NCBI GenBank assembly: GCA_902598315.1
Contig: CACKBP010000006.1
Span: 1-64,000 of the forward strand
Source: an uncultured Pelagibacteraceae bacterium
GTDB taxonomy: Bacteria > Pseudomonadota > Alphaproteobacteria > Pelagibacterales > Pelagibacteraceae
Direction: 5' to 3'
DNA length: 64,000 nucleotides
The translations under genes were made by a program, and so were the position numbers. A model generated the notes under the pieces. That model saw nothing but the letters and a program-made list of their open reading frames with translations, ran no database searches and was not told the origin of the DNA. Positions 12,535-51,881 of the stretch are shown here, piece after piece. Position 1 is the first letter of the stretch; every line of letters begins with the position of its first letter.

Positions 12535-13109
12535 AGTTTATTTCTACTTAAATCTGCTGCTAAATAAATTGATGGAATAACTTTTTTAACATCGAAGATC
12601 TTATTTGCTTCATTTATAACTTCCTGCTTTTCTTCTTTATCCATAGCTATTCCAAAAATATAAATATTTTGATTTATTGTTTCTAAAGTGTAATTTCTAG
12701 CTTTAGTTTTTTTATTAAATATTAAAGCTGATCTCAATTGACTTGTAATTAAGATGTCTTTTGCTGTACCTTTAAAAGTAGATTGACCTTTAATTGTAAT
12801 CGCATTTTTAACAGACCGAACACCTTTTGTCTCCCAAGCCATTTTAGTAATCTTAATTTTTTCTTCTGCTTGATCTACTTTACCAGATAAGAAAATGTTA
12901 CCATCTCTCACCTCTGATTGAATTGATATGAAATATTTTTTATCAGATAATGCGAGTCTCGCACTTAAATTTTTTTGCATAATAGTGTCATCAATTTGCA
13001 TTCCAATTGTCCTAGGATCAAAGGTTATGTCTACACCAGCGCCAAACTGACCTACTGAAGAACAAGATGTTAATAAAACAAAAATAAATATATTAATTTT
13101 TTTTATCAT
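12531..13109 (-). CDS. dolP: BON-domain outer-membrane lipoprotein (DolP/YraP-like)
   Basis: A secreted lipoprotein with signal peptide MIKKINIFIFVLLTSC (lipidated Cys16) and two BON domains (about 45-115 and 120-190) with the recurrent 'V..G.I.L.G.V' pattern. In enterobacteria DolP supports outer-membrane integrity and sits beside rsmI and lpoA; the same three families are neighbours here, which supports the name. It overlaps the 3' end of rsmI by 17 bp. Function in this organism is inferred from domain and synteny. Confidence 0.82.
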   Translation of the reverse strand: MIKKINIFIFVLLTSCSSVGQFGAGVDITFDPRTIGMQIDDTIMQKNLSARLALSDKKYFISIQSEVRDGNIFLSGKVDQAEEKIKITKMAWETKGVRSVKNAITIKGQSTFKGTAKDILITSQLRSALIFNKKTKARNYTLETINQNIYIFGIAMDKEEKQEVINEANKIFDVKKVIPSIYLAADLSRNKL

Positions 13110-13932
13110 TTTTTAAGTTGAGACAAATATTATAAATAATTTTTTTTTTTTCATTTTCAGTTTGCATAATTAAATCAACTGTATCCTTTACGCTATACTT
13201 TTTTAAAAATTTTTTGGCCATGTTAATAATTTTTTTTTCGTTACTTTTTTTATCAATTATCTTTTTGTCAGAAATCACTGCTGTAATTTCACCTTTAACT
13301 TGATTTCTAAAAAGTTGGTAATCTTTAATATCATCTCTAGAAAAATCTTCGTGAAGCTTAGTCATTTCTTTACAGATTGTTATTTTTCTATCGGTAAAAT
13401 ACTTTTTAAACTTTTCAATATAAAAATTTATTTTCAAAGGTTGTATGAAAAAAATAATTGGAAACTGAAATTCTGATAAAGAATTTAATACCTTATCCAC
13501 TTGATTTTCAGTTTTAGGCAAAAAGCCGTAAAATAAAAATTTATCACCAAAACCTGAAACGCTCATTGCGGTTGTAATGGAGGAAACTCCTGGAATAGGA
13601 CAAATTTTAATTTTATTTTTTATACATTCATTTATTAGCAAGTTTCCTGGATCAGATAAAATTGGTGTTCCGGCATCAGATACAACAGACAAAATTTTGC
13701 CCCGATTGATGTGCTCTATGACGTTATTGATTTGTTTTTTTTCGTTAAATTTATGATAAGGGACTAATTTTTTTTTAATACTATAATGATTAAACAATTT
13801 TATCGAATGTCTAGTATCCTCACAAAGAATGATATCTGAATTTTTTAACACTTCTATTGCTCTTAAGGTAATATCTTTAAGATTCCCAATGGGTGTTGAC
13901 ACAATATATAAAGTATTTGTAAATAATTTCAT
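13093..13932 (-). CDS. rsmI: 16S rRNA 2'-O-ribose C1402 methyltransferase RsmI
   Basis: RsmI methylates the ribose of C1402 in the decoding centre using SAM. Diagnostic motifs: LYIVSTPIGNLKDITLRA near the N-terminus, CEDTRHS at about 38-44, VSDAGTPILSDPG, and PGVSSITTAMSVSGFG. Length (279) is normal, with a Lys-rich tail. Its ATG lies 3 bp from the ATG of the divergent LpoA-like gene, so each gene's promoter must lie inside the other. Confidence 0.95.
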   Translation of the reverse strand: MKLFTNTLYIVSTPIGNLKDITLRAIEVLKNSDIILCEDTRHSIKLFNHYSIKKKLVPYHKFNEKKQINNVIEHINRGKILSVVSDAGTPILSDPGNLLINECIKNKIKICPIPGVSSITTAMSVSGFGDKFLFYGFLPKTENQVDKVLNSLSEFQFPIIFFIQPLKINFYIEKFKKYFTDRKITICKEMTKLHEDFSRDDIKDYQLFRNQVKGEITAVISDKKIIDKKSNEKKIINMAKKFLKKYSVKDTVDLIMQTENEKKKIIYNICLNLKNDKKN

Positions 13933-13935
13933 GAT

Positions 13936-15090
13936 ATGAAAATAAAATTTTTAATATTTTTATCTTACATAATTTTTTTTATTTACTCTAATCTTTTAAG
14001 TGATGAAAATAATAAAAATCTTAAAGTTGGTTTGTTAGCACCTCTTTCAGGTGAATACTCAGATTTAGGGAATTCACTTTTATATTCTTTACAATTGGCA
14101 TTAGGTGAAATAGGAGATGATAAAGTTTTTATTATTCCTAGAGACACAGGTTTTAATGATAAAGATAAACTTAATTCTGCAATAAAAGATATTCGAGAAC
14201 AAGGCGTAAAAATAATAATTGGACCTATAAGCAGTGAAGATTTCAAAGAAGTTAAAAAATATACGGACATTACGTTTATTTCACCCTCAAACATTTCACC
14301 TGAGTTTGAAAATAATATTATCAGCGTGGGCATTAGTCTAGAGTCTCAATTAATTGCATTGGATAAATTTATTAAAAAAAATAAAAAAAAAAGAACCGTA
14401 ATAATGTATCCAAATAATAAGTACAAAGAGCTCATAGAAAAAAAAATAAAAAAACTTAATATTAATCATTTTAAAATATTTAACTACAGTCCAGATCCTC
14501 AAATCCTAACTGGAGAAATTGAAACTCTTACAAATTATTCACAGAGAAAAAGAAATCTTGAAATTAGAAAAAAAATGTTTGAAGACAAAGAAGATCCTCA
14601 GTCCATCAAAGAACTCGAAAGACTTGAGCAACTATACACTTTAGGAAAAGTCAATTTTGACTCTGTTATAATCATAGATTTTGGAAATAGTCTAAAAAGT
14701 GTTTTAACATCTCTTGTTTACACAGACGTGAATCAAGATAATGTTTTGATTACTACAGTGAATCAGTGGTTTGATGAAAGCATATTTTATGAAAATACCA
14801 TTAAAACCCTTTATTACCCATCTATAAATTATGATGAGTTTAAAAAGTATAACAAAAAATATTTTAAAAGGTTTAAGTCTGACCCAACAGAAATTACAAT
14901 TTTAACTTATGATGCTTTGGGATTAATTTATTATGTTTGGAAAACAAATGGTAAAATAAATTCTGTTAATGATTTTTCACTTAAAAAAAAGATAAAAGGT
15001 AAAATTGGAGTTTTTAGTTTTAAAGATAAAAAAGTTTTACAAGAGTTAGAAATATACAAAACCGAAAAAAATAAATTTATAAAGTTTTAA
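13936..15090 (+). CDS. LpoA-like penicillin-binding protein activator (periplasmic-binding-protein fold)
   Basis: The 384-residue protein begins with a signal sequence or anchor (MKIKFLIFLSYIIFFIYSNL) and continues with a type I periplasmic-binding-protein fold: KVGLLAPLSGEYSDLG, IIGPISSEDFKEV, and a late LTYDALGLIYYVW. This corresponds to the C-terminal domain of LpoA (YraM), which activates PBP1a. The N-terminal TPR domain of E. coli LpoA is absent, as is usual in alphaproteobacteria. A simple solute-binding protein is the alternative, but no transporter genes are nearby and rsmI/dolP are the expected LpoA neighbours. Its 3' end overlaps rdgB by 14 bp. Confidence 0.72.
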   Translation: MKIKFLIFLSYIIFFIYSNLLSDENNKNLKVGLLAPLSGEYSDLGNSLLYSLQLALGEIGDDKVFIIPRDTGFNDKDKLNSAIKDIREQGVKIIIGPISSEDFKEVKKYTDITFISPSNISPEFENNIISVGISLESQLIALDKFIKKNKKKRTVIMYPNNKYKELIEKKIKKLNINHFKIFNYSPDPQILTGEIETLTNYSQRKRNLEIRKKMFEDKEDPQSIKELERLEQLYTLGKVNFDSVIIIDFGNSLKSVLTSLVYTDVNQDNVLITTVNQWFDESIFYENTIKTLYYPSINYDEFKKYNKKYFKRFKSDPTEITILTYDALGLIYYVWKTNGKINSVNDFSLKKKIKGKIGVFSFKDKKVLQELEIYKTEKNKFIKF

Positions 15091-22061: not shown

Positions 22062-22682
22062 TCAAAAATAATAACCCTTTTTGTTATTTAAAATAAAATT
22101 ATCATCCGAAAATTTATCACTAATTTTTTTTCTTAATCTGTAAATATGTGTTTCCACGGTATGCGTATCCGCATCTGACGAATAATTCCAAACTAAAGAT
22201 AATATTTCATTTTTGGACATTGGTTTTTTTTTATTCAAAAATAGTTCCATCAAATTAATCTCTTTTTCTGTTAAAATTATAAATTGATTTTTTTTTAACA
22301 ATTTTTTGTCATTTTTATTCAGCGTATATGATTTTATTTTAATTGATGAATTTTTCACAAATTTTTTTTTTGCAACAAGGCTTTCTACAACATTATTTAT
22401 TTCGTTGATGGAAGTGGGTAGTTTTAGAAAAAAATCAAATAAGTCAGACTTGTCGTTTTTTTTGTCATATGAAGCTAATATTTTAAAACAGTCCTTATTA
22501 TCTGAAACTGTTTTATTAATTTTATCTTTAAGTATTTCCTCGTGGTAAATAATGCCGTCAAAATTATCAATAGAAGTTTCTTTGATAAATTCTGTAAAAT
22601 TGAACTTTAAATAATCTTTTAGTTCATTTATTGTAGATATAAAGCTTTTGGGGCCAAAAATTAAAATATTTAGTTTATGCAT
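22062..22682 (-). CDS. Winged-helix (OmpR-type) transcriptional regulator with degenerate receiver
   Basis: The C-terminal 100 residues form an OmpR/PhoB-type DNA-binding domain: LTEKEINLMELFLNKKKPMSKNEIL, then DTHTVETHIYRLRKKI and KKGYYF at the end. The N-terminal 115 residues or so have receiver-like size and secondary-structure pattern, but the acidic pocket and phospho-Asp are not recognisable (GIIYHEEIL in the expected beta-3 region). It may therefore work without phosphorylation. No histidine kinase is adjacent. Its ATG overlaps that of the divergent YkuD gene within ATGCAT. Confidence 0.8.
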   Translation of the reverse strand: MHKLNILIFGPKSFISTINELKDYLKFNFTEFIKETSIDNFDGIIYHEEILKDKINKTVSDNKDCFKILASYDKKNDKSDLFDFFLKLPTSINEINNVVESLVAKKKFVKNSSIKIKSYTLNKNDKKLLKKNQFIILTEKEINLMELFLNKKKPMSKNEILSLVWNYSSDADTHTVETHIYRLRKKISDKFSDDNFILNNKKGYYF

Positions 22683-29178: not shown

Positions 29179-30154
29179 AAGTTACCAAGTTGAGCTTAAT
29201 GCCAAAATTATTAAACAAGATTTGGTATTATTTTATGGAGAAAACCTAGGTCTACAAGACGATATTAGAAGAAATATAAAGCTAAATTATCCTGGAAGTG
29301 AAATATTGTACTTTGATCAAGATGATTTACTTAAAAATAAAAATTTAATTTTTAATGAAATGAATAATGACTCATTATTTAACAAACAAAAAATTTTTTT
29401 TATAGGTCAAGTGAATGAAAAAATTTTTGATCTCATAAAAGAAATTGATTATAAAAACGATAAAAAAATATTTTTATTTGGAGGATTGTTAGAGAAAAAA
29501 TCTAAATTAAGAAACTTTTTTGAAAAAGAAAACAATTGTGCGGTAGTTCCATGTTATGAAGATAATGAAATTAACATCAAAAAAATAATTTTATATCACC
29601 TTAAGGATTATCAAGGACTCACTAATAACGTCATAAGTTTAATTATAGAAAAAACTGGGCTTAACAGGGTAAAACTCAATAATGAGCTTCAGAAAATAAC
29701 AAGTTTGTTTCAAAATAAGAATATTGATCTGAAAAAATTAGAGCTTTTGTTAAACTTAAAAGAAAATGATGATTTTAATAAACTTAAAGATATGGCTTTT
29801 AATGGAAATAAGGAAAAAACTAATAATTTACTAAGTGAAACCAATCTAGAAAATGAAAAGAATATTTACTATCTAAACATAATAAACAACAGGTTGCAGA
29901 AACTTTTAGAATTAAAAAAAAATAGAAAAAGTTCAAACATTAATGATGATATTGATAATCTTAAACCACCTATTTTTTGGAAAGAAAAGCCGAATTTTGC
30001 TATTCAAGCAAATAAATGGTGTGAAAAAAAAATTCTTACTATGATGAGAAGAACTTATAAATTAGAAATTGAATTAAAATCAAACTCTTCGATTAATAAA
30101 AATATATTATTTAAAAAATTAATGGTAGATATCTGTAATATAGCTAATTCCTAG
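29168..30154 (+). CDS. holA: DNA polymerase III delta subunit HolA
   Basis: The clamp-loader subunit that opens the beta clamp. The N-terminal AAA-like region has DLVLFYGENLGLQDDIRR (without a true Walker A, as expected), followed by KIFFIGQVNEK and the C-terminal collar domain with IIEKTGLNRVKLNNELQKI. Length 328. Its locus after leuS-lptE is the standard one. It converges with parB, overlapping by 11 bp. Confidence 0.88.
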   Translation: MIYKSYQVELNAKIIKQDLVLFYGENLGLQDDIRRNIKLNYPGSEILYFDQDDLLKNKNLIFNEMNNDSLFNKQKIFFIGQVNEKIFDLIKEIDYKNDKKIFLFGGLLEKKSKLRNFFEKENNCAVVPCYEDNEINIKKIILYHLKDYQGLTNNVISLIIEKTGLNRVKLNNELQKITSLFQNKNIDLKKLELLLNLKENDDFNKLKDMAFNGNKEKTNNLLSETNLENEKNIYYLNIINNRLQKLLELKKNRKSSNINDDIDNLKPPIFWKEKPNFAIQANKWCEKKILTMMRRTYKLEIELKSNSSINKNILFKKLMVDICNIANS

Positions 30155-30998
30155 TTAGCAAATCTGACACTAACTCAAACTGATCTAAATCTTTATACTC
30201 GATTGTAACTTTTCCAGAATTATTTTTTTTGTTTAATATATTTACTTTTAAACCAAGAGATTTTTGGATTCTCTCTTGGGCCTTTAATATATTTGCATCA
30301 ATTACTTTTTCTTTATTATTACCCCTTTTATTTCTTACAAGGTATTCCACCTTTCTAGCGCTGTAATTTTTTGATACTATTTCCTCGGCAATACTGGAGG
30401 CATTAGAAATTCCTATTAATGGTCTAGCTTGACCTGAAGTCAGTGTACCTTCTTCTAGCATGGCGATAACATCACTCGGTAAAGTTAAAAGTCTTAGTGT
30501 ATTACTTATATGACTTCTACTTTTAGACATTAATTTAGAAATACTTTCATGATCATATTTAAATTCATCATTCAGTCTTTTATACCCACGAGCTTCCTCG
30601 ATTGGGTTAAGATCATCACGCTGAATATTTTCTACTATAGCAACTTCTAAAGACTCAACATCTGATAAATCTAATATTGTAACTGGTATTTCGTGTAAAC
30701 CTGCTTTTTGTGCAGCTAGCCACCTTCTCTCTCCAGCAACAATTTCATATTTACCTGATTTAGATTTACTAGGTCTAACTGCGATAGGCTGAATAATGCC
30801 GTTTTTTCTTATAGAATTGGCTAATTCTTCCAATTTTTCCTCTTTGAAATTTTGCCTAGGCTGATACGGATTTCGAGTTAAATCGGCGATAGCAGCCGTA
30901 TTATTTTGACTCGTAAGAGGTGATTTTTCCTTTGGAGCTGTATCTCCAAATAATGCGGATAACCCTCTGCCTAAACCTCTTTTTTTTCCAGAATTCAT
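30144..30998 (-). CDS. parB: Chromosome partitioning protein ParB
   Basis: A DNA-binding CTPase that loads at parS and spreads along the chromosome. N-terminal MNSGKKRGLGRGLSALFGD is the ParA-interaction motif; the CTP/ParB box region includes NPYQPRQNF and GERRWLAAQKAG; the HTH is in MSKSRSHISNTLRLLTLP; a short C-terminal dimerisation domain follows. Length 284. It overlaps parA by 4 bp. Candidate parS sites lie about 1-1.2 kb upstream, inside rsmG. Confidence 0.97.
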   Translation of the reverse strand: MNSGKKRGLGRGLSALFGDTAPKEKSPLTSQNNTAAIADLTRNPYQPRQNFKEEKLEELANSIRKNGIIQPIAVRPSKSKSGKYEIVAGERRWLAAQKAGLHEIPVTILDLSDVESLEVAIVENIQRDDLNPIEEARGYKRLNDEFKYDHESISKLMSKSRSHISNTLRLLTLPSDVIAMLEEGTLTSGQARPLIGISNASSIAEEIVSKNYSARKVEYLVRNKRGNNKEKVIDANILKAQERIQKSLGLKVNILNKKNNSGKVTIEYKDLDQFELVSDLLTRN

Positions 30999-31792
30999 GC
31001 AGCGCTTTCAATTTGATTTTTTTTTAAAAATTCTTCAGCCAGTTTAAAATAAGATTTACTTCCAATACAATTTTTATCGTAAACAACGCAAGGTAACCCA
31101 TGTGAAGGTGCTTCAGACAAACGTACGTTTCTTTGAATCACCGTCTGATATACTTTTTCTTTAAAATAATTTCTTGCTTCTCTGTCAACCTCAGAAGAAA
31201 GTTTGTTTCTTTTGTCAAACATTGTCAGTAAAATACCTCTGATCTTAAGACCTGGATTTAGATTTTCTTTTATGCGATCAATTGTTTTTACAAGCTGAGT
31301 GATACCCTCTAATGCGAAGAATTCTGTTTGAAGCGGGACCAGCAATTCATCTGAGGCAACTAATGCCATTATAGTAAGTAAGCTTAGAGACGGGGGACAG
31401 TCTATAAAAATATTATCGTATTTTTTTAGAAGGCCGCTTTTTTTTAATTTAAGAATTTCTTTTAATACAAATGCTCTGTTAGAGTCATTAGCAGTTTCAA
31501 CCTCAAGACCAGAAAGATTTACATGAGAACCTATTAGATCAAGATTTTCGATATCAGTTTTCTGGATTATATTTTCAATATTGGTTTTTTTTATTAAAAG
31601 ATTATAAACATTCTTATCCTCATCATTATTATTCTTTCCTAAGCCGGTTGTTGCATTACCCTGTGGATCTAAATCAATTACTAAATTATTTTGACCCATA
31701 ATGGACAGTGATGCAGCCAAATTTATTACTGTGGTGGTTTTTCCCACGCCACCTTTCTGATTTATGATCGCTAATGTTGTGGGTGATGACAT
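30995..31792 (-). CDS. parA: Chromosome partitioning ATPase ParA (Soj)
   Basis: A Walker-type ATPase that forms the gradient moving ParB-parS complexes. The deviant Walker A is NQKGGVGKTTT near residue 11-21, the A' motif is DLDPQGNATTGLG, and Walker B is IFIDCPPSL. Length 265. It lies directly after rsmG on the minus strand, giving the classic gidA-gidB-parA-parB order. Confidence 0.97.
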   Translation of the reverse strand: MSSPTTLAIINQKGGVGKTTTVINLAASLSIMGQNNLVIDLDPQGNATTGLGKNNNDEDKNVYNLLIKKTNIENIIQKTDIENLDLIGSHVNLSGLEVETANDSNRAFVLKEILKLKKSGLLKKYDNIFIDCPPSLSLLTIMALVASDELLVPLQTEFFALEGITQLVKTIDRIKENLNPGLKIRGILLTMFDKRNKLSSEVDREARNYFKEKVYQTVIQRNVRLSEAPSHGLPCVVYDKNCIGSKSYFKLAEEFLKKNQIESAA

Positions 31793-32410
31793 TTATTTGT
31801 TAATCTCCATCAAAATTATTTTTGAATCTTTATTTGTCATGCTGCTTTCTAATTTATAAGGGTATTTTTTTGTTTTTAAAGAATTATTTAATTCTTTCTG
31901 TGCATTTTGACCTTTTAAAATCATTAATTTATGGGGCTTTTTAGCGATTTCACGTGAAACTTGTATTATTTGATCTAATTTTTTAAAAGCTCTACAGATT
32001 ATTAACTCAGAATCTAAAACTTCGTCTCTGACATCTCCAAAAACTTCTGCATTTAAACTCAATTCCTTAATTACACCCGTTAAAAACCTTCTTTTTACTG
32101 GTGATTTTTCATACAATTTCACGTGAAAAGCCTTATTTTCATTGAATATTTCTACTACGAGACCCGGGAATCCTGCTCCAGAGCCAAGATCAGCGATGGA
32201 ATTAAGGTTAAAATCAATAAACTTAACCAATTGTGCTGAATCAAGTATATGTCTATGCCAAATTTGATTTTCTGTGCTTTTAGAAATTAAATTATAATTT
32301 TGATTTTCTTTTAAAACTAGATTTGTGAACTTTATAAGCTTCTCAATTGAATGATCTCTAAAATTAAGACTCTTTTTGAGAATATTTATAACTTCAAGCT
32401 GCTGCATCAA
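31793..32410 (-). CDS. rsmG: 16S rRNA (guanine527-N7)-methyltransferase RsmG (GidB)
   Basis: A SAM-dependent methyltransferase for G527 of 16S rRNA. The SAM loop is [18 protein letters not shown], with [13 protein letters not shown] following and [12 protein letters not shown] in the second half. Length 205. It overlaps mnmG by 4 bp. Two 12-bp palindromes resembling parS lie within this reading frame, so the gene sequence is under a second constraint. Confidence 0.95.
31946..31961. other. parS-like ParB-binding site 1 (inside rsmG)
   Basis: The 16 bases centred on CACGTG match the conserved bacterial parS consensus TGTTTCACGTGAAACA at 13 of 16 positions, including the whole palindromic core TTTCACGTGAAA plus the next C. 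It lies within 1.2 kb of parAB. I found the 12-bp core only here and at the second site in the window. Confidence 0.8.
32115..32130. other. parS-like ParB-binding site 2 (inside rsmG)
   Basis: The core TTTCACGTGAAA is intact and 12 of 16 positions of the parS consensus match. Its centre is 169 bp from that of the first site. Two copies of a 12-bp palindrome in one 618-bp AT-rich gene next to parAB are unlikely by chance. Confidence 0.75.
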
Positions 32411-34275
32411 GCAGTGGCTTTATATCTAAGTTTTTTAATGTGTGAAAGAAGCATAATTATTGCTGCTGGCGTAACACCGTCAATACGAATAGCTTGACCT
32501 AGCGTTTTGGGCTTCACCTGAAGCAACTTACTCTTAATCTCATTAGATAGGCCGCTCAGTTTTTCATAATCTATACCCTCAGGTATGATAACGGACTCGT
32601 CTTTCTTAAAAGACTCTATGTCTCTATCTTGTCTGTCAAGGTAACCCATATAATGGGCATCTGTTTCAACTTGATTTTCTATAGGCTTTGGAAAACTAGG
32701 TATATCGCAAAATACTTGCCTTATTTTTGCCATATTTACTTTTCGCTGGCCCATAATCTCTAAGCAAGATCTTTTTACTCCATCCATAGCAATTTTGATA
32801 TCATATTTCTTAGCTTGATTAGGTGATAAATAATTATTTTTTAAAATTGAATTAAGAGCCAAGATATTTTTTTTCTTTTCGTTAAATATTTTTTTTCTTT
32901 CAGACTTCACTAAATTTAAATTGATTCCAAAATCAGTTAGCCTTTGATCGGCATTATCGGCTCTTAAAGTTAGTCTGTATTCAGCTCTAGATGTAAACAT
33001 TCTATAAGGTTCCGTAACTCCTTTTGTAATGAGGTCATCAATCATGACGCCAATATAAGATGTTGATCGATCTAAAATAAACTCTTCTTGATTTTGAATT
33101 TTAAGAGCCGCATTAATCCCAGCAATCAAACCTTGAGCTGCAGCCTCTTCGTACCCTGTAGTTCCATTGATTTGTCCAGCAAGAAATAAAGAATTAATTT
33201 TTTTTGTTTCTAAGGTAGCTTTTAACTCCCTTGGATCCACATAATCATACTCAATTGCGTACCCAGCCCTCTTCATCTTAACATGCTCTAAACCCTTGAT
33301 TTTGCTCAGTATTTTAAACTGTATCTCCTCTGGCAGAGAGGTTGATATGCCGTTTGGGTAAATAGTATTGTCCTTTAATCCCTCTGGTTCTAAAAATATT
33401 TGGTGTTTTTCTTTTTCCTTAAACTTAACAATTTTATCCTCTATAGATGGACAATATCTAGGTCCTACTCCTTTTATGTTTCCTGAATACATAGCACTTC
33501 TAGAAATGTTTTCACTAATAATTTTGTGAACATCATTATTTGTATAGGTCATCCCACATTTAATCTGCTTATTATTGATCTTGTTCGTCAAGAAAGAGAA
33601 ATAATAATGATCATCATCAGCAGGCTGCATTTCTAAGCCGTCATAATTAATTGTATCACCATCTAGTCTAGGAGGCGTTCCAGTTTTTAATCTTCCAATT
33701 TGCATTTTAAATTTTGACAATTGTTCACTCAAACCGGTGGATGGTTTTTCATCGAACCTACCTGCTGGTATTTGTTTTTCACCTATATGAATCAAACCAT
33801 TTAAAAAAGTTCCTGTAGTCAATATTAATTCTTTAGTTCTTACTTCTTTACCGCTTTGACAAATAAATCCTATGATCTTGTTATGCTCAAATAAAAATTT
33901 TGTTACTGGATCAGCAATAACTTCCAAATTTTCATAATTTAGCAAAATTTTTTGCATATGTTCTTTATAAAGAGCTCTATCTGACTGGGTCCTTGGTCCT
34001 TGCACTGCTGGACCACGACTTCTATTTAACAATCTAAATTGGATACCAGATTTATCAGCTACAACACCCATCACACCATCTAAAGCATCGATTTCTCTTA
34101 CAAGATGCCCTTTTCCTAGCCCTCCTATAGCGGGATTGCATGACATTTCACCTATAGTCTCTATTTTATGAGTAAAAAGAGCAGTATTTACGCCCATTCT
34201 AGCGGAAGCTGCTGCCGCCTCGCATCCAGCATGTCCTCCACCTATAACTACTACATCATAGCTTTGTTTTGTCAT
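32407..34275 (-). CDS. mnmG: tRNA uridine-5-carboxymethylaminomethyl modification enzyme MnmG (GidA)
   Basis: An FAD enzyme that with MnmE makes cmnm5U34 in tRNAs. The FAD fingerprint [17 protein letters not shown] is at the N-terminus (about 12-28). Conserved segments are [24 protein letters not shown] and [29 protein letters not shown], and the C-terminal MnmE-binding helical domain is intact. Length 622. It shares a minus-strand cluster with mnmE, 42 bp upstream. Confidence 0.97.
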
Positions 34276-49200: not shown

Positions 49201-49781
49201 TTTTTATTCTGTTTAATATAGTTTATAATATCTTTTATAGGCAAACCCATAATTGAATCCCGATCTCCTTTAATATATTCGAATAATTCCAATCCTTTTG
49301 CCTCGATTTGGTAAACACCATAAGCAAGTAAAGTTTTTGTGCTTATTTTGTCAAGATATTCTCTAAGATGCTTTTCTGTTAAACGTTTCATCTTTAACTC
49401 AGAAGAGTCAGAATGGTTCCAAATCATCGCACCATTTTTGGAAATACAAACTGAGCTTATCAAAAAATGCTTGGAATTATTTAATTTCTCTAATATTTTA
49501 AAAGCTTCTTCTCTAGATTTTGGCTTGTTTATCAATTTATTATCAAGAGAGATAACGCTATCTGCTCCCAAAACTAACCTACCCGGATTTTTACTACTTA
49601 CCCTAATTGATTTTATTTCAGCAAGATTTTTAGATATAGATAAAGGATCGGCTCCTTCTTCTAACAAAGAATCCTTTATTTCATCTTCATCTACATTTGA
49701 AACAATTACTTCACAATCAATTTTATATTTATCTAAGATTTTTTTTCTTACACCGCTCTTTGAGGCTAATATAATTTTCAT
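49197..49781 (-). CDS. maf: Maf-family nucleotide pyrophosphatase
   Basis: A house-cleaning pyrophosphatase for modified nucleotides. N-terminal ILASKSGVRKKIL (S/T-x-R-R/K motif), LGADSVISLDNKLINKPKSREEA in the middle, and the C-terminal DRDSIMGLPI. Length 194. Which Maf subtype (dTTP/UTP or m7GTP) is not decided here. It overlaps ppsR by 4 bp. Confidence 0.93.
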   Translation of the reverse strand: MKIILASKSGVRKKILDKYKIDCEVIVSNVDEDEIKDSLLEEGADPLSISKNLAEIKSIRVSSKNPGRLVLGADSVISLDNKLINKPKSREEAFKILEKLNNSKHFLISSVCISKNGAMIWNHSDSSELKMKRLTEKHLREYLDKISTKTLLAYGVYQIEAKGLELFEYIKGDRDSIMGLPIKDIINYIKQNKK

Positions 49782-50596
49782 TTATGTTTTTTTATTTCTA
49801 TCATTTTCAAAATCGACGCTGCTGTTTCTTCTACAGATCTTCTTGTAACGTCTATAGTTGGCCAATTATTTTTTTTAAATAAAGTTTTTGAGTCATCTAC
49901 CTCTTTTTTTATAAAATCTAAATTAGTGTAATCTTTCAATTTAGTATCTTTCATTATAGCCACTCTGTTACGTCTAATATCAGCTAATCTCTCAGGATCA
50001 GCCACTAAACCTATAATGCATGCTGATTTGTTTTTCTTAAGACCATCTGGTATTTCCTGCTCTGACACCAACGGTATATTGATTGTTTTATAACCTCTAT
50101 TAGCTAAATAAATTGAGGTAGGGGTTTTGCTGGTTCTACTCACGCCTAATAAAATAACATCTGCATCATCAATATCGTCAACTTTTTTTCCATCATCATG
50201 GGACATTGTGAATTGTATAGCCTCTATTCTTTTATAATAATCAGCATCTAGGACATGTTGAGCGCTCGGTTTGTGAATAGCTTTTTGATTCAATAACTTT
50301 GAAAAACTCAAAATTAAATTTCCTAAAATACCAAAACAAGGCACATTGTGTTTTTGACTTTGACTTGAAATATATTTAGCTAACTTTGTTTCAACAATGG
50401 TGTAAAGAATTAATGAATTTTCTACTTTATTACACTCTTTGATAATTTTATCGATTTGTTGTTCAGTTCTCACAAAAGCAAATTCTTTCTTTTCATATTC
50501 AAAATTTTCAAACTGTGACTTAAGAGATAGGAATATTCTATCAAGGGTTTCACCTGTTGAGTCAGACACAAGATATACATTGTATTTTTCGTTCAT
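49778..50596 (-). CDS. ppsR: Bifunctional kinase/pyrophosphorylase of the PpsR/PDRP (DUF299) family
   Basis: Homologues reversibly phosphorylate PEP synthase or pyruvate phosphate dikinase. The N-terminal VYLVSDSTGETLDRI and the P-loop VILLGVSRTSKTPTSIYLANRGYKTINIPLV are family signatures, and the C-terminal RRSVEETAASILKMI is typical. Length 272. This gene is the RP001/CC_0001-type gene that borders the origin in Rickettsia and Caulobacter. It is the first gene leftward from the candidate oriC. Confidence 0.93.
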   Translation of the reverse strand: MNEKYNVYLVSDSTGETLDRIFLSLKSQFENFEYEKKEFAFVRTEQQIDKIIKECNKVENSLILYTIVETKLAKYISSQSQKHNVPCFGILGNLILSFSKLLNQKAIHKPSAQHVLDADYYKRIEAIQFTMSHDDGKKVDDIDDADVILLGVSRTSKTPTSIYLANRGYKTINIPLVSEQEIPDGLKKNKSACIIGLVADPERLADIRRNRVAIMKDTKLKDYTNLDFIKKEVDDSKTLFKKNNWPTIDVTRRSVEETAASILKMIEIKKHK

Positions 50597-50870
50597 AAAG
50601 TTGTTAATAAACTAATAGTAAATAACCTTTTTTAACCTTTTATAAAAATGTTGATTAAAACGTTAACATTAATTCACATCATTTTAACAATTTATTCGAT
50701 GTTAATAATGCTGTTTTACTAGTGTTTATAAGATTAATAAAGTCATCAAACAAAGGTTTTTTGGGAAAAATTACTAACTAGCACATGTATAAAATATGTA
50801 TAAAAAGTTATATGGATATTAAACAGGGCCTAGTACATAAACAACGTTTTTAAAAAACTATTATTTTATA
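50597..50870. other. Candidate chromosomal replication origin (oriC) between ppsR and hemE
   Basis: The largest gap in the window (274 bp), very AT-rich, flanked by divergent ppsR and hemE, the same pair that flanks the experimentally defined Caulobacter origin. Two sites are one mismatch from the DnaA box TTATNCACA: TAATTCACA at 50670-50678 (plus) and TGTTTATAA at 50723-50731 (minus). The decamer ATGTATAAAA occurs at 50785 and 50796 (11-bp period). Variants of (G/A)TTAATAA recur at about 50603, 50701 and 50733. GTTAAC is at 50662-50667. No CtrA-type TTAA-N7-TTAA was found. It must also hold the ppsR and hemE promoters. Confidence 0.7.
50785..50805. repeat. Two direct decamer repeats, 11-bp period, in the candidate origin
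   Basis: ATGTATAAAA at 50785-50794 and again at 50796-50805, separated by one T. The 11-bp spacing places both copies on the same face of the helix, as for cooperative protein binding. They fall in the hemE-proximal half of the gap, beside the AT-rich stretch GTTATATGGATATTAAA. Confidence 0.7.
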
Positions 50871-51881
50871 ATGATAAGTTTAAGAAATATTTTAGTTAAC
50901 AAAATTTCTTGTAAATCTATCTGGTTTATGAGACAAGCAGGACGTTATCTTCCCGAATTCAGGAAAATAAGAAAAAAGAATAAAAATTTCATTAAGCTTT
51001 GTTTGAATAGTGAATTAAGTTCAGAAATTACGTTACAACCAATAAAAAGATTCAATTTAGACTCAGCAATAATTTTTTCTGACATTTTAATGACACCGTA
51101 TGCCTTAGGACAGGATATAACTTTTAAAAATAACCAAGGCCCAAAACTCAGTGAATTTAAGATGGATGTTCTAATAAGAAATAACAAAGAAGATTTTTCT
51201 CAAAAATTAAGCCAAGTTTATAAAGCTATTGAAATAACAAGAAAAAAATTAGAAAAAGACAAGTCCTTAATTTGCTTTATTGGAGCGCCATGGACACTTT
51301 TAATTTATATGCTAGGCTTAAAGAAAAATAATAACAGTTTAGATATAGACAAATATAACAAATATAAAAAACAAATTAATAAGATACTGAAAGAATTAAA
51401 TTTTTACTTGTGTGCTCACATAGAGAATCAAATTAATGCTGGAGCAGATGTAGTTCAAATATTTGATTCTTGGGCTGGCCTCATACCAGATAAAGATATA
51501 AAAGATTTTTGTTATATTCCAAATAAAAGAATTGTAGATTTTTGTAAAAGTAAAAATATAGTATCTATTTGCTTTCCTAAAGGTTTAAAAAAAAATTATG
51601 AAGTATTCAATAATTTTGTTAAGCCAGATGGAATTAACTTAGACCCCGATTTAGATCCTTTATGGGCTAGAAATAAACTCAAGGATGTTGTCTTACAAGG
51701 TGGTTTAAACCCAAAAATATTGTTAAAAACTAACAAAGATATTTTAGAAACAGCGACGAAATACGTAAAAGCTTTTAAAGATATTCCATATGTTTTTAAT
51801 CTTGGACATGGGTTACTTCCGGAAACAGATCCTGTTAAAGTAGAAATGTTAATTAATTTTTATAGGAATTATAATGAATAA
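50871..51881 (+). CDS. hemE: Uroporphyrinogen decarboxylase HemE
   Basis: Heme pathway enzyme converting uroporphyrinogen III to coproporphyrinogen III. The N-terminal signature WFMRQAGRYLPEFR, FSDILMTPYALGQD with the catalytic Asp, FIGAPWTLLIYML, and the C-terminal FNLGHGLLPETDPVKVEMLI are all present. Length 336. It overlaps hemH by 8 bp and is the first gene rightward from the candidate origin, as in Caulobacter. Confidence 0.97.
   Translation: MISLRNILVNKISCKSIWFMRQAGRYLPEFRKIRKKNKNFIKLCLNSELSSEITLQPIKRFNLDSAIIFSDILMTPYALGQDITFKNNQGPKLSEFKMDVLIRNNKEDFSQKLSQVYKAIEITRKKLEKDKSLICFIGAPWTLLIYMLGLKKNNNSLDIDKYNKYKKQINKILKELNFYLCAHIENQINAGADVVQIFDSWAGLIPDKDIKDFCYIPNKRIVDFCKSKNIVSICFPKGLKKNYEVFNNFVKPDGINLDPDLDPLWARNKLKDVVLQGGLNPKILLKTNKDILETATKYVKAFKDIPYVFNLGHGLLPETDPVKVEMLINFYRNYNE

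Follow-up and report, generated by a model that had tools for sequence, protein, structure and literature searches.

The ppsR-hemE intergenic gap as the probable replication origin of a SAR11 chromosome, compact and lacking recognisable CtrA and IHF sites

The closest described systems are two alphaproteobacterial replication origins, the experimentally mapped origin of Caulobacter crescentus (Cori) and the Rickettsia origin at the hemE locus, both of which have hemE and a COG1806 gene as boundary genes in the available part of the original comparison (PMC1914354). The CtrA site is given there as TTAA-N7-TTAA. We analysed a stretch of 64,000 nucleotides (the window) from contig C6 of a SAR11 genome of 0.94 Mb, which is in 18 contigs and 83% complete. 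It is highly probable that the 274-bp intergenic gap between ppsR and hemE (50597-50870) is the chromosomal replication origin of this genome, and the proposed oriC is very probably of the hemE/COG1806 kind of Caulobacter and Rickettsia, compact and without CtrA or IHF sites. Like Cori and the Rickettsia origin, as far as they are described in the part of PMC1914354 at hand, the gap is located between hemE and COG1806 (ppsR), is AT-rich, carries a DnaA-box cluster and lies near the skew centre, the last in three of the four complete relatives sampled. Unlike Cori, the window's gap has no CtrA site and none of 16 SAR11 genomes exceeded the CtrA cut-off; unlike both origins as presented in that part of the text, it has no IHF consensus, and its boxes have drifted to TTATNAACA and similar sequences. 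The same source looks for intergenic regions longer than 300 bp, and this gap has 274 bp. The first-pass annotation had proposed a compact (<275 bp) alphaproteobacterial origin here. Its length, position and conserved motifs, the box enrichment, the skew centre in relatives, the proximity of parAB and the unreached CtrA cut-off, all read from sequence, argue for that proposal.

The left boundary gene is ppsR (COG1806/DUF299-type; 49778-50596, minus strand; NF003742, 9.1e-96) and the right one is hemE (50871-51881, plus strand; TIGR01464, 3.5e-88, at 295.9 bits slightly below the model cut-off of 302.95); transcription of both runs outward from the gap. NCBIfam models matched nine flanking proteins (a PpsR-type regulator, HemE, HemH, HemJ, Rho, Maf, AroE, CoaE and DnaQ), with maf, aroE, coaE and dnaQ on the left beyond ppsR, and hemH, hemJ and rho on the right beyond hemE. 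The boundaries, the two flanking genes and the runs on either side are exactly those first annotated, and, as was claimed, no other non-coding stretch of the window is as long: with our own choice of ORFs the runner-up measured 195 bp, and a longer apparent gap at 1-617 was dismissed as a gene cut by the window edge. The GC content of the gap is 21%, compared with 25-40% for 2-kb stretches of the window. No tRNA and no Rfam family at gathering score was found in it. By PpsR, and among the best 80 of 543 matches, the nearest named relatives were 'Candidatus Pelagibacter ubique' HIMB058 and single-cell genomes of Pelagibacteraceae, which puts the genome in SAR11.

We examined whether the gap is conserved in relatives, as the first-pass annotation had suggested for SAR11 genomes. 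A protein search of 150 relatives, many of which are incomplete or distant, returned PpsR from only 72, and from 8 of the 23 that are at least 90% complete. Seventy of the 72 belong to the same genus; leaving aside G066 and G081, we examined 68 loci, one of them the window's own. In all 68, hemE is divergent from ppsR and 263-286 bp away, even though PpsR identity falls to 65%. A Pfam model search detected PpsR in 20/20 family genomes from 11 genera. In the wider family the ppsR-hemE spacing was 258-300 bp in 20 of the 22 loci fetched (L167, L195 and 20 others); the hemE starts in several loci were extrapolated from BLAST alignments. Place, length and motifs are conserved among SAR11 genomes. 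In genus g19 (L213 and L214) hemE is not beside ppsR, and rho begins after 353 bp. HemE searches of their genomes (G171 and G158, respectively) gave weak top hits, 1.7e-22 and 3.0e-23, so relocation, replacement or loss of heme genes is possible there. Both g19 loci, in which hemE does not adjoin ppsR, were left out of the set of 88 gaps used below (68 from the genus and 20 from the family). L056 and L057, which belong to other families, gave no ppsR start, and the 2 kb retrieved for L057 contained no hemE.

DnaA boxes were scored against the consensus TTATNCACA with one mismatch allowed. The exact consensus is absent from the window's gap and has a sole match in 64 kb, at 14535 (3.5 expected from shuffles); with one match, outside the gap, it was dropped as a test. 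At one mismatch the gap holds five boxes, at 50602 (minus), 50670 (plus), 50700 (minus), 50723 (minus) and 50795 (minus), so that the near-consensus boxes noticed at first are real but their number was five, not two. The 88 homologous gaps contain 329 one-mismatch boxes, compared with a mean of 68 (sd 6.6, maximum 81) in 30 sets of dinucleotide shuffles, and 10 exact boxes compared with 2.6, the gaps being related by kinship and the draws non-independent. In such AT-rich DNA, one-mismatch boxes are weak evidence for any single genome. Within the 64 kb, 274-bp stretches with at least four of them occur in two places, the gap and near 12950; the second place (12950-13230) includes two copies of TTATTAACA among its boxes. 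The 274-bp stretch richest in boxes (5) in the 400 kb sampled from the complete relative G154 overlaps the gap; within its own limits the gap has 4 boxes, a number equalled at two other places of the sample. For G191 the sample shows 3 boxes in the gap and the densest cluster elsewhere (4 at 555.6 kb).

In the genus alignment, six columns have one-mismatch boxes in at least 8 of the 68 sequences (53, 40, 45, 8, 22 and 37). The ppsR-proximal box TTATTAACA (50602-50610, minus, 1 mismatch) falls in a column with such a box in 53/68. It is followed by three head-to-tail sites ending in ACA, ACGTTAACA, TAATTCACA and ATTTTAACA (50660-50689, plus), spaced by 10 and 11 bp; the middle one is itself a one-mismatch box. 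The ACA is invariant in 68/68 for the first two sites and 94-100% conserved per base in the third, and this array may well be bound by DnaA. Two further one-mismatch boxes on the minus strand, TTATTAACA at 50700-50708 and TTATAAACA at 50723-50731, have counterparts in 40/68 and 45/68 sequences, respectively. At 50784-50803 (minus) two DnaA-box-like sites are spaced by 11 bp; TTATACATG has 2 mismatches and TTATACATA has 1, and their columns carry one-mismatch boxes in 22/68 and 37/68. The repeated motifs reported earlier were also found: TGTTAATAA is present twice (50602 and 50700), and TGTATAAAA-type repeats occur at 50784 and 50795, 11 bp apart. The motif blocks are conserved at 0.84 versus 0.67 for the remaining gap, a contrast that is partly circular because the blocks were picked after the alignment was viewed. 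The DnaA protein of this genome carries its helix-turn-helix domain.

Next to hemE is a module (50817-50835, plus) that can be compared with the basal unwinding system (BUS) of Bacillus subtilis and many other bacteria, for which the parts of the literature at hand give the order DnaA box, GC spacer and DnaA-trios (PMC8287927, PMC6669920, PMC10721633). The module consists of a degenerate DnaA box TATTAAACA (50817-50825), a GC cluster GGGCC (50826-50830) and the trio-like triplets CTA GTA (50830-50835). In the genus, the ACA of the box is invariant in 68/68 and the five bases after it are 70% GC versus a gap mean of 18%. CTA follows the box at 3-5 nt in 58/68 sequences, compared with 5.7 (maximum 12) in shuffles. 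The order of DnaA box, GC-rich spacer, CTA triplet (the complement of the 3'-GAT-5' trio) and AT-rich DNA resembles that of the BUS, although the window's box is degenerate; unlike the BUS of those papers, the window has no more than two trio-like triplets in a row. In the aligned columns, three or more trios in a row were at chance (17/68 in the genus versus 14.8 in shuffles), and a three-trio BUS was rejected. The conserved order hints that the module marks where the duplex opens, with the AT-rich stretch up to hemE (50836-50870) as the proposed site of first strand opening.

The arrangement suggests how the origin might work. DnaA would bind an array of boxes on both strands that are weak and shifted towards AT (TTATNAACA, TTATACATA and the like), and with several boxes 10-11 bp apart the bound molecules could line up. 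The DnaA assembly would then extend to the hemE-proximal box, and the DNA would open just past the GC cluster next to it, in the AT-rich sequence that leads up to hemE. Helicase loaded in this opened stretch would give two diverging forks. DnaA occupancy, the direction of opening and helicase loading at the gap are predictions from the layout of the motifs.

We then searched for the regulators of Caulobacter-type origins. TTAA-N7-TTAA is absent from the window's gap, and the IHF site WATCAN5WTR was found in it on neither strand. With the CtrA model NF045991 (cut-off 350 bits) none of 16 other SAR11 genomes scored above the cut-off (best 148), where one of 14 control genomes did; the model was built on Rhodobacter-type CtrA, and a very divergent CtrA may escape it. 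The 83% of the genome in hand encodes four OmpR-type proteins, none above the CtrA cut-off: one PhoB, one without a recognisable receiver and two others below the cut-off. This agrees with a report, available to us in part, of Pelagibacter lacking a ctrA orthologue (PMC2877005). The TTAA-N7-TTAA sites and ctrA gene of a CtrA-controlled Caulobacter-type origin were thus not recovered. The annotated lack of a CtrA-type site holds for this genome's gap, yet 47 of the 88 related gaps carry TTAA-N7-TTAA, versus 16 after base shuffling. In the genus, 39/68 sequences have the motif; its start falls at the ppsR-proximal box in 26 of them and in the phased array in 17. We read these copies as DnaA sites because near-consensus boxes occupy the same positions in the window or in relatives.

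The gap could also be the origin while an OmpR-family regulator in the former role of CtrA, and not DnaA, binds its array at 50660-50689, a variant of the preferred explanation whose odds overlap with it and which we consider unlikely. In the published examples accessible to us (PMC9275681, PMC1914354), the sites of OmpR-family proteins are direct repeats spaced by roughly one turn of the helix, and the excess of TTAA-N7-TTAA in genomes where the CtrA cut-off is unreached would fit such a protein. A candidate gene is also present: 22062-22682 (minus), 28 kb from the gap, encodes an OmpR-type protein with Trans_reg_C only and an N-terminal half without a Pfam receiver match, and 14/16 SAR11 genomes have partial matches of this kind at a distance of 17-28 kb from the ppsR gap. 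Against this reading, the window's array contains a better match to the DnaA box (TAATTCACA), as do the arrays of relatives (TTTTCCACA in L055, TTACTCACA in L059 and L061); the window's array has no TTAA-N7-TTAA, and only the 17 genus sequences mentioned above have one there. A further idea, that this CtrA-less SAR11 origin has partly kept CtrA-type one-turn repeats which another OmpR-family protein now uses, is somewhat less likely still; the receiver-less regulator near the origin would perhaps be the user. If so, the start of replication in these streamlined, free-living cells would be set by an OmpR-family protein at the kept repeats. A search for literature on OmpR proteins at 11-bp arrays and on origins without CtrA found no matching paper. 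As a separate observation, the receiver-less protein has been retained in streamlined genomes. CenR, an OmpR-family protein that binds TGA-N8-TGA direct repeats, was dropped as its identity, as the accessible part of the CenR paper states that Pelagibacterales have no CenK/CenR homologue (PMC9275681).

To place the gap on the chromosome, we calculated GC skew from 20 stretches of 20 kb in each of four complete relatives, with split positions on a 5-kb grid; the G191 sample was denser near the gap than elsewhere. When the chromosome was split at the gap, the skew difference between the halves was 0.139 in G154, 0.116 in G158, 0.086 in G175 and 0.069 in G191, and of 2000 stretch shuffles 0, 0, 10 and 52, respectively, reached the gap score. 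The best split coincided with the gap in G154 and was 28 kb away from it in G158, 26 kb in G175 and 85 kb in G191. In this check, proposed by the first-pass annotation, the skew shift expected at an origin is seen in relatives only, at the gap itself or within 28 kb in three genomes and weakly in G191; the window's own 64-kb skew has no minimum at the gap. A published skew model, in the portion at hand, lists HTCC1062 among chromosomes with unequal arms (PMC2099444).

The gap might instead merely hold the divergent promoters and leaders, with conserved regulatory sites, of ppsR and hemE, and the origin would then lie elsewhere. The outward starts of both genes and five sigma-70-like matches in 50500-50950 fit this reading, but 3.6 (sd 1.9) such matches were expected. 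The g19 gap, which adjoins rho in place of hemE, retains four one-mismatch boxes in L213 and three in L214. The last of these is TTATAAACA; TTCCC or TGACC comes next and CTA after it, in the same box, GC cluster and CTA order as elsewhere. Keeping boxes where hemE does not adjoin argues against a plain hemE promoter. The skew centre, no more than 28 kb from the gap in three of the four complete relatives, also counts against a promoter, which would leave unexplained that parB lies within 21 kb in 12/12 genomes. Together these observations make a mere promoter region very improbable.

The remaining alternative, that the origin adjoins dnaA as in many bacteria, 60-73 kb off, is the least probable reading: all 16 relatives searched have dnaA no more than 73 kb from the gap, and in G191 dnaA splits the skew better (0.082 versus 0.069 at the gap), but the gap gives the higher split in G154 (0.139 versus 0.099 at dnaA), G158 (0.116 versus 0.086) and G175 (0.086 versus 0.059), and dnaA lies on the hemE side (60-64 kb) in nine genomes and on the ppsR side (70-73 kb) in seven. 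In all 16, dnaA is transcribed away from the gap. In the window's genome dnaA sits on another contig, in line with the earlier remark that no dnaA gene is nearby. In a related observation, SAR11 genera differ in whether dnaA, parB and the OmpR-type gene lie to the hemE side or to the ppsR side of the gap. The positions are offset by ~9 kb, a pattern that would follow if a small block holding the gap had been inverted. Such a local inversion of the ppsR-hemE block explains the side changes and offsets as well as symmetric inversions about the origin would; the latter were rejected as evidence, and only the direction of dnaA was used.

The chromosome partition genes parB and parA are at 30144-31792 (minus; parB by TIGR00180, 2.9e-56, and parA from the ORF translation only). 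The parB match (30378-30902) is about 20 kb from the gap, and parB was 9-21 kb from it in the 12 genomes searched, with distances taken from coordinates. These genes belong to a parB-parA-rsmG-mnmG run at 30144-34275, in which the names besides parB were read from translations. A parS-like sequence GATTTCACGTGAAACT with three mismatches lies inside the rsmG frame (31946-31961); 0.39 such sites were expected, and the site is weak alone because 33 of 100 shuffles have at least one. The run and the parS-like site may possibly form a segregation centre.

SAR11 bacteria are among the most abundant bacterial groups, and their replication at sea is estimated from origin-to-terminus coverage. A short conserved origin marker 60-73 kb from dnaA would fix a reference point for such estimates. 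In the parts of two studies available to us, one placed the terminus by coverage alone (PMC9589681), and another, of complete Arctic SAR11 genomes, began its genome alignments at DnaA (PMC12421898). We found no description of a SAR11 origin sequence in the papers searched, which were mostly open-access. As an alphaproteobacterial origin without a recognisable CtrA, the gap would be a natural case in which the dispensable parts of the Caulobacter origin become testable. In L056, from another alphaproteobacterial family, hemE is ~0.5 kb from ppsR and the gap has four one-mismatch boxes and one TTAA-N7-TTAA. A TAATCCACA box is followed there by a second box-like site and CAACAACCACTACCACC, with the TTAA-N7-TTAA alongside, an order that resembles the hemE-proximal module of SAR11.
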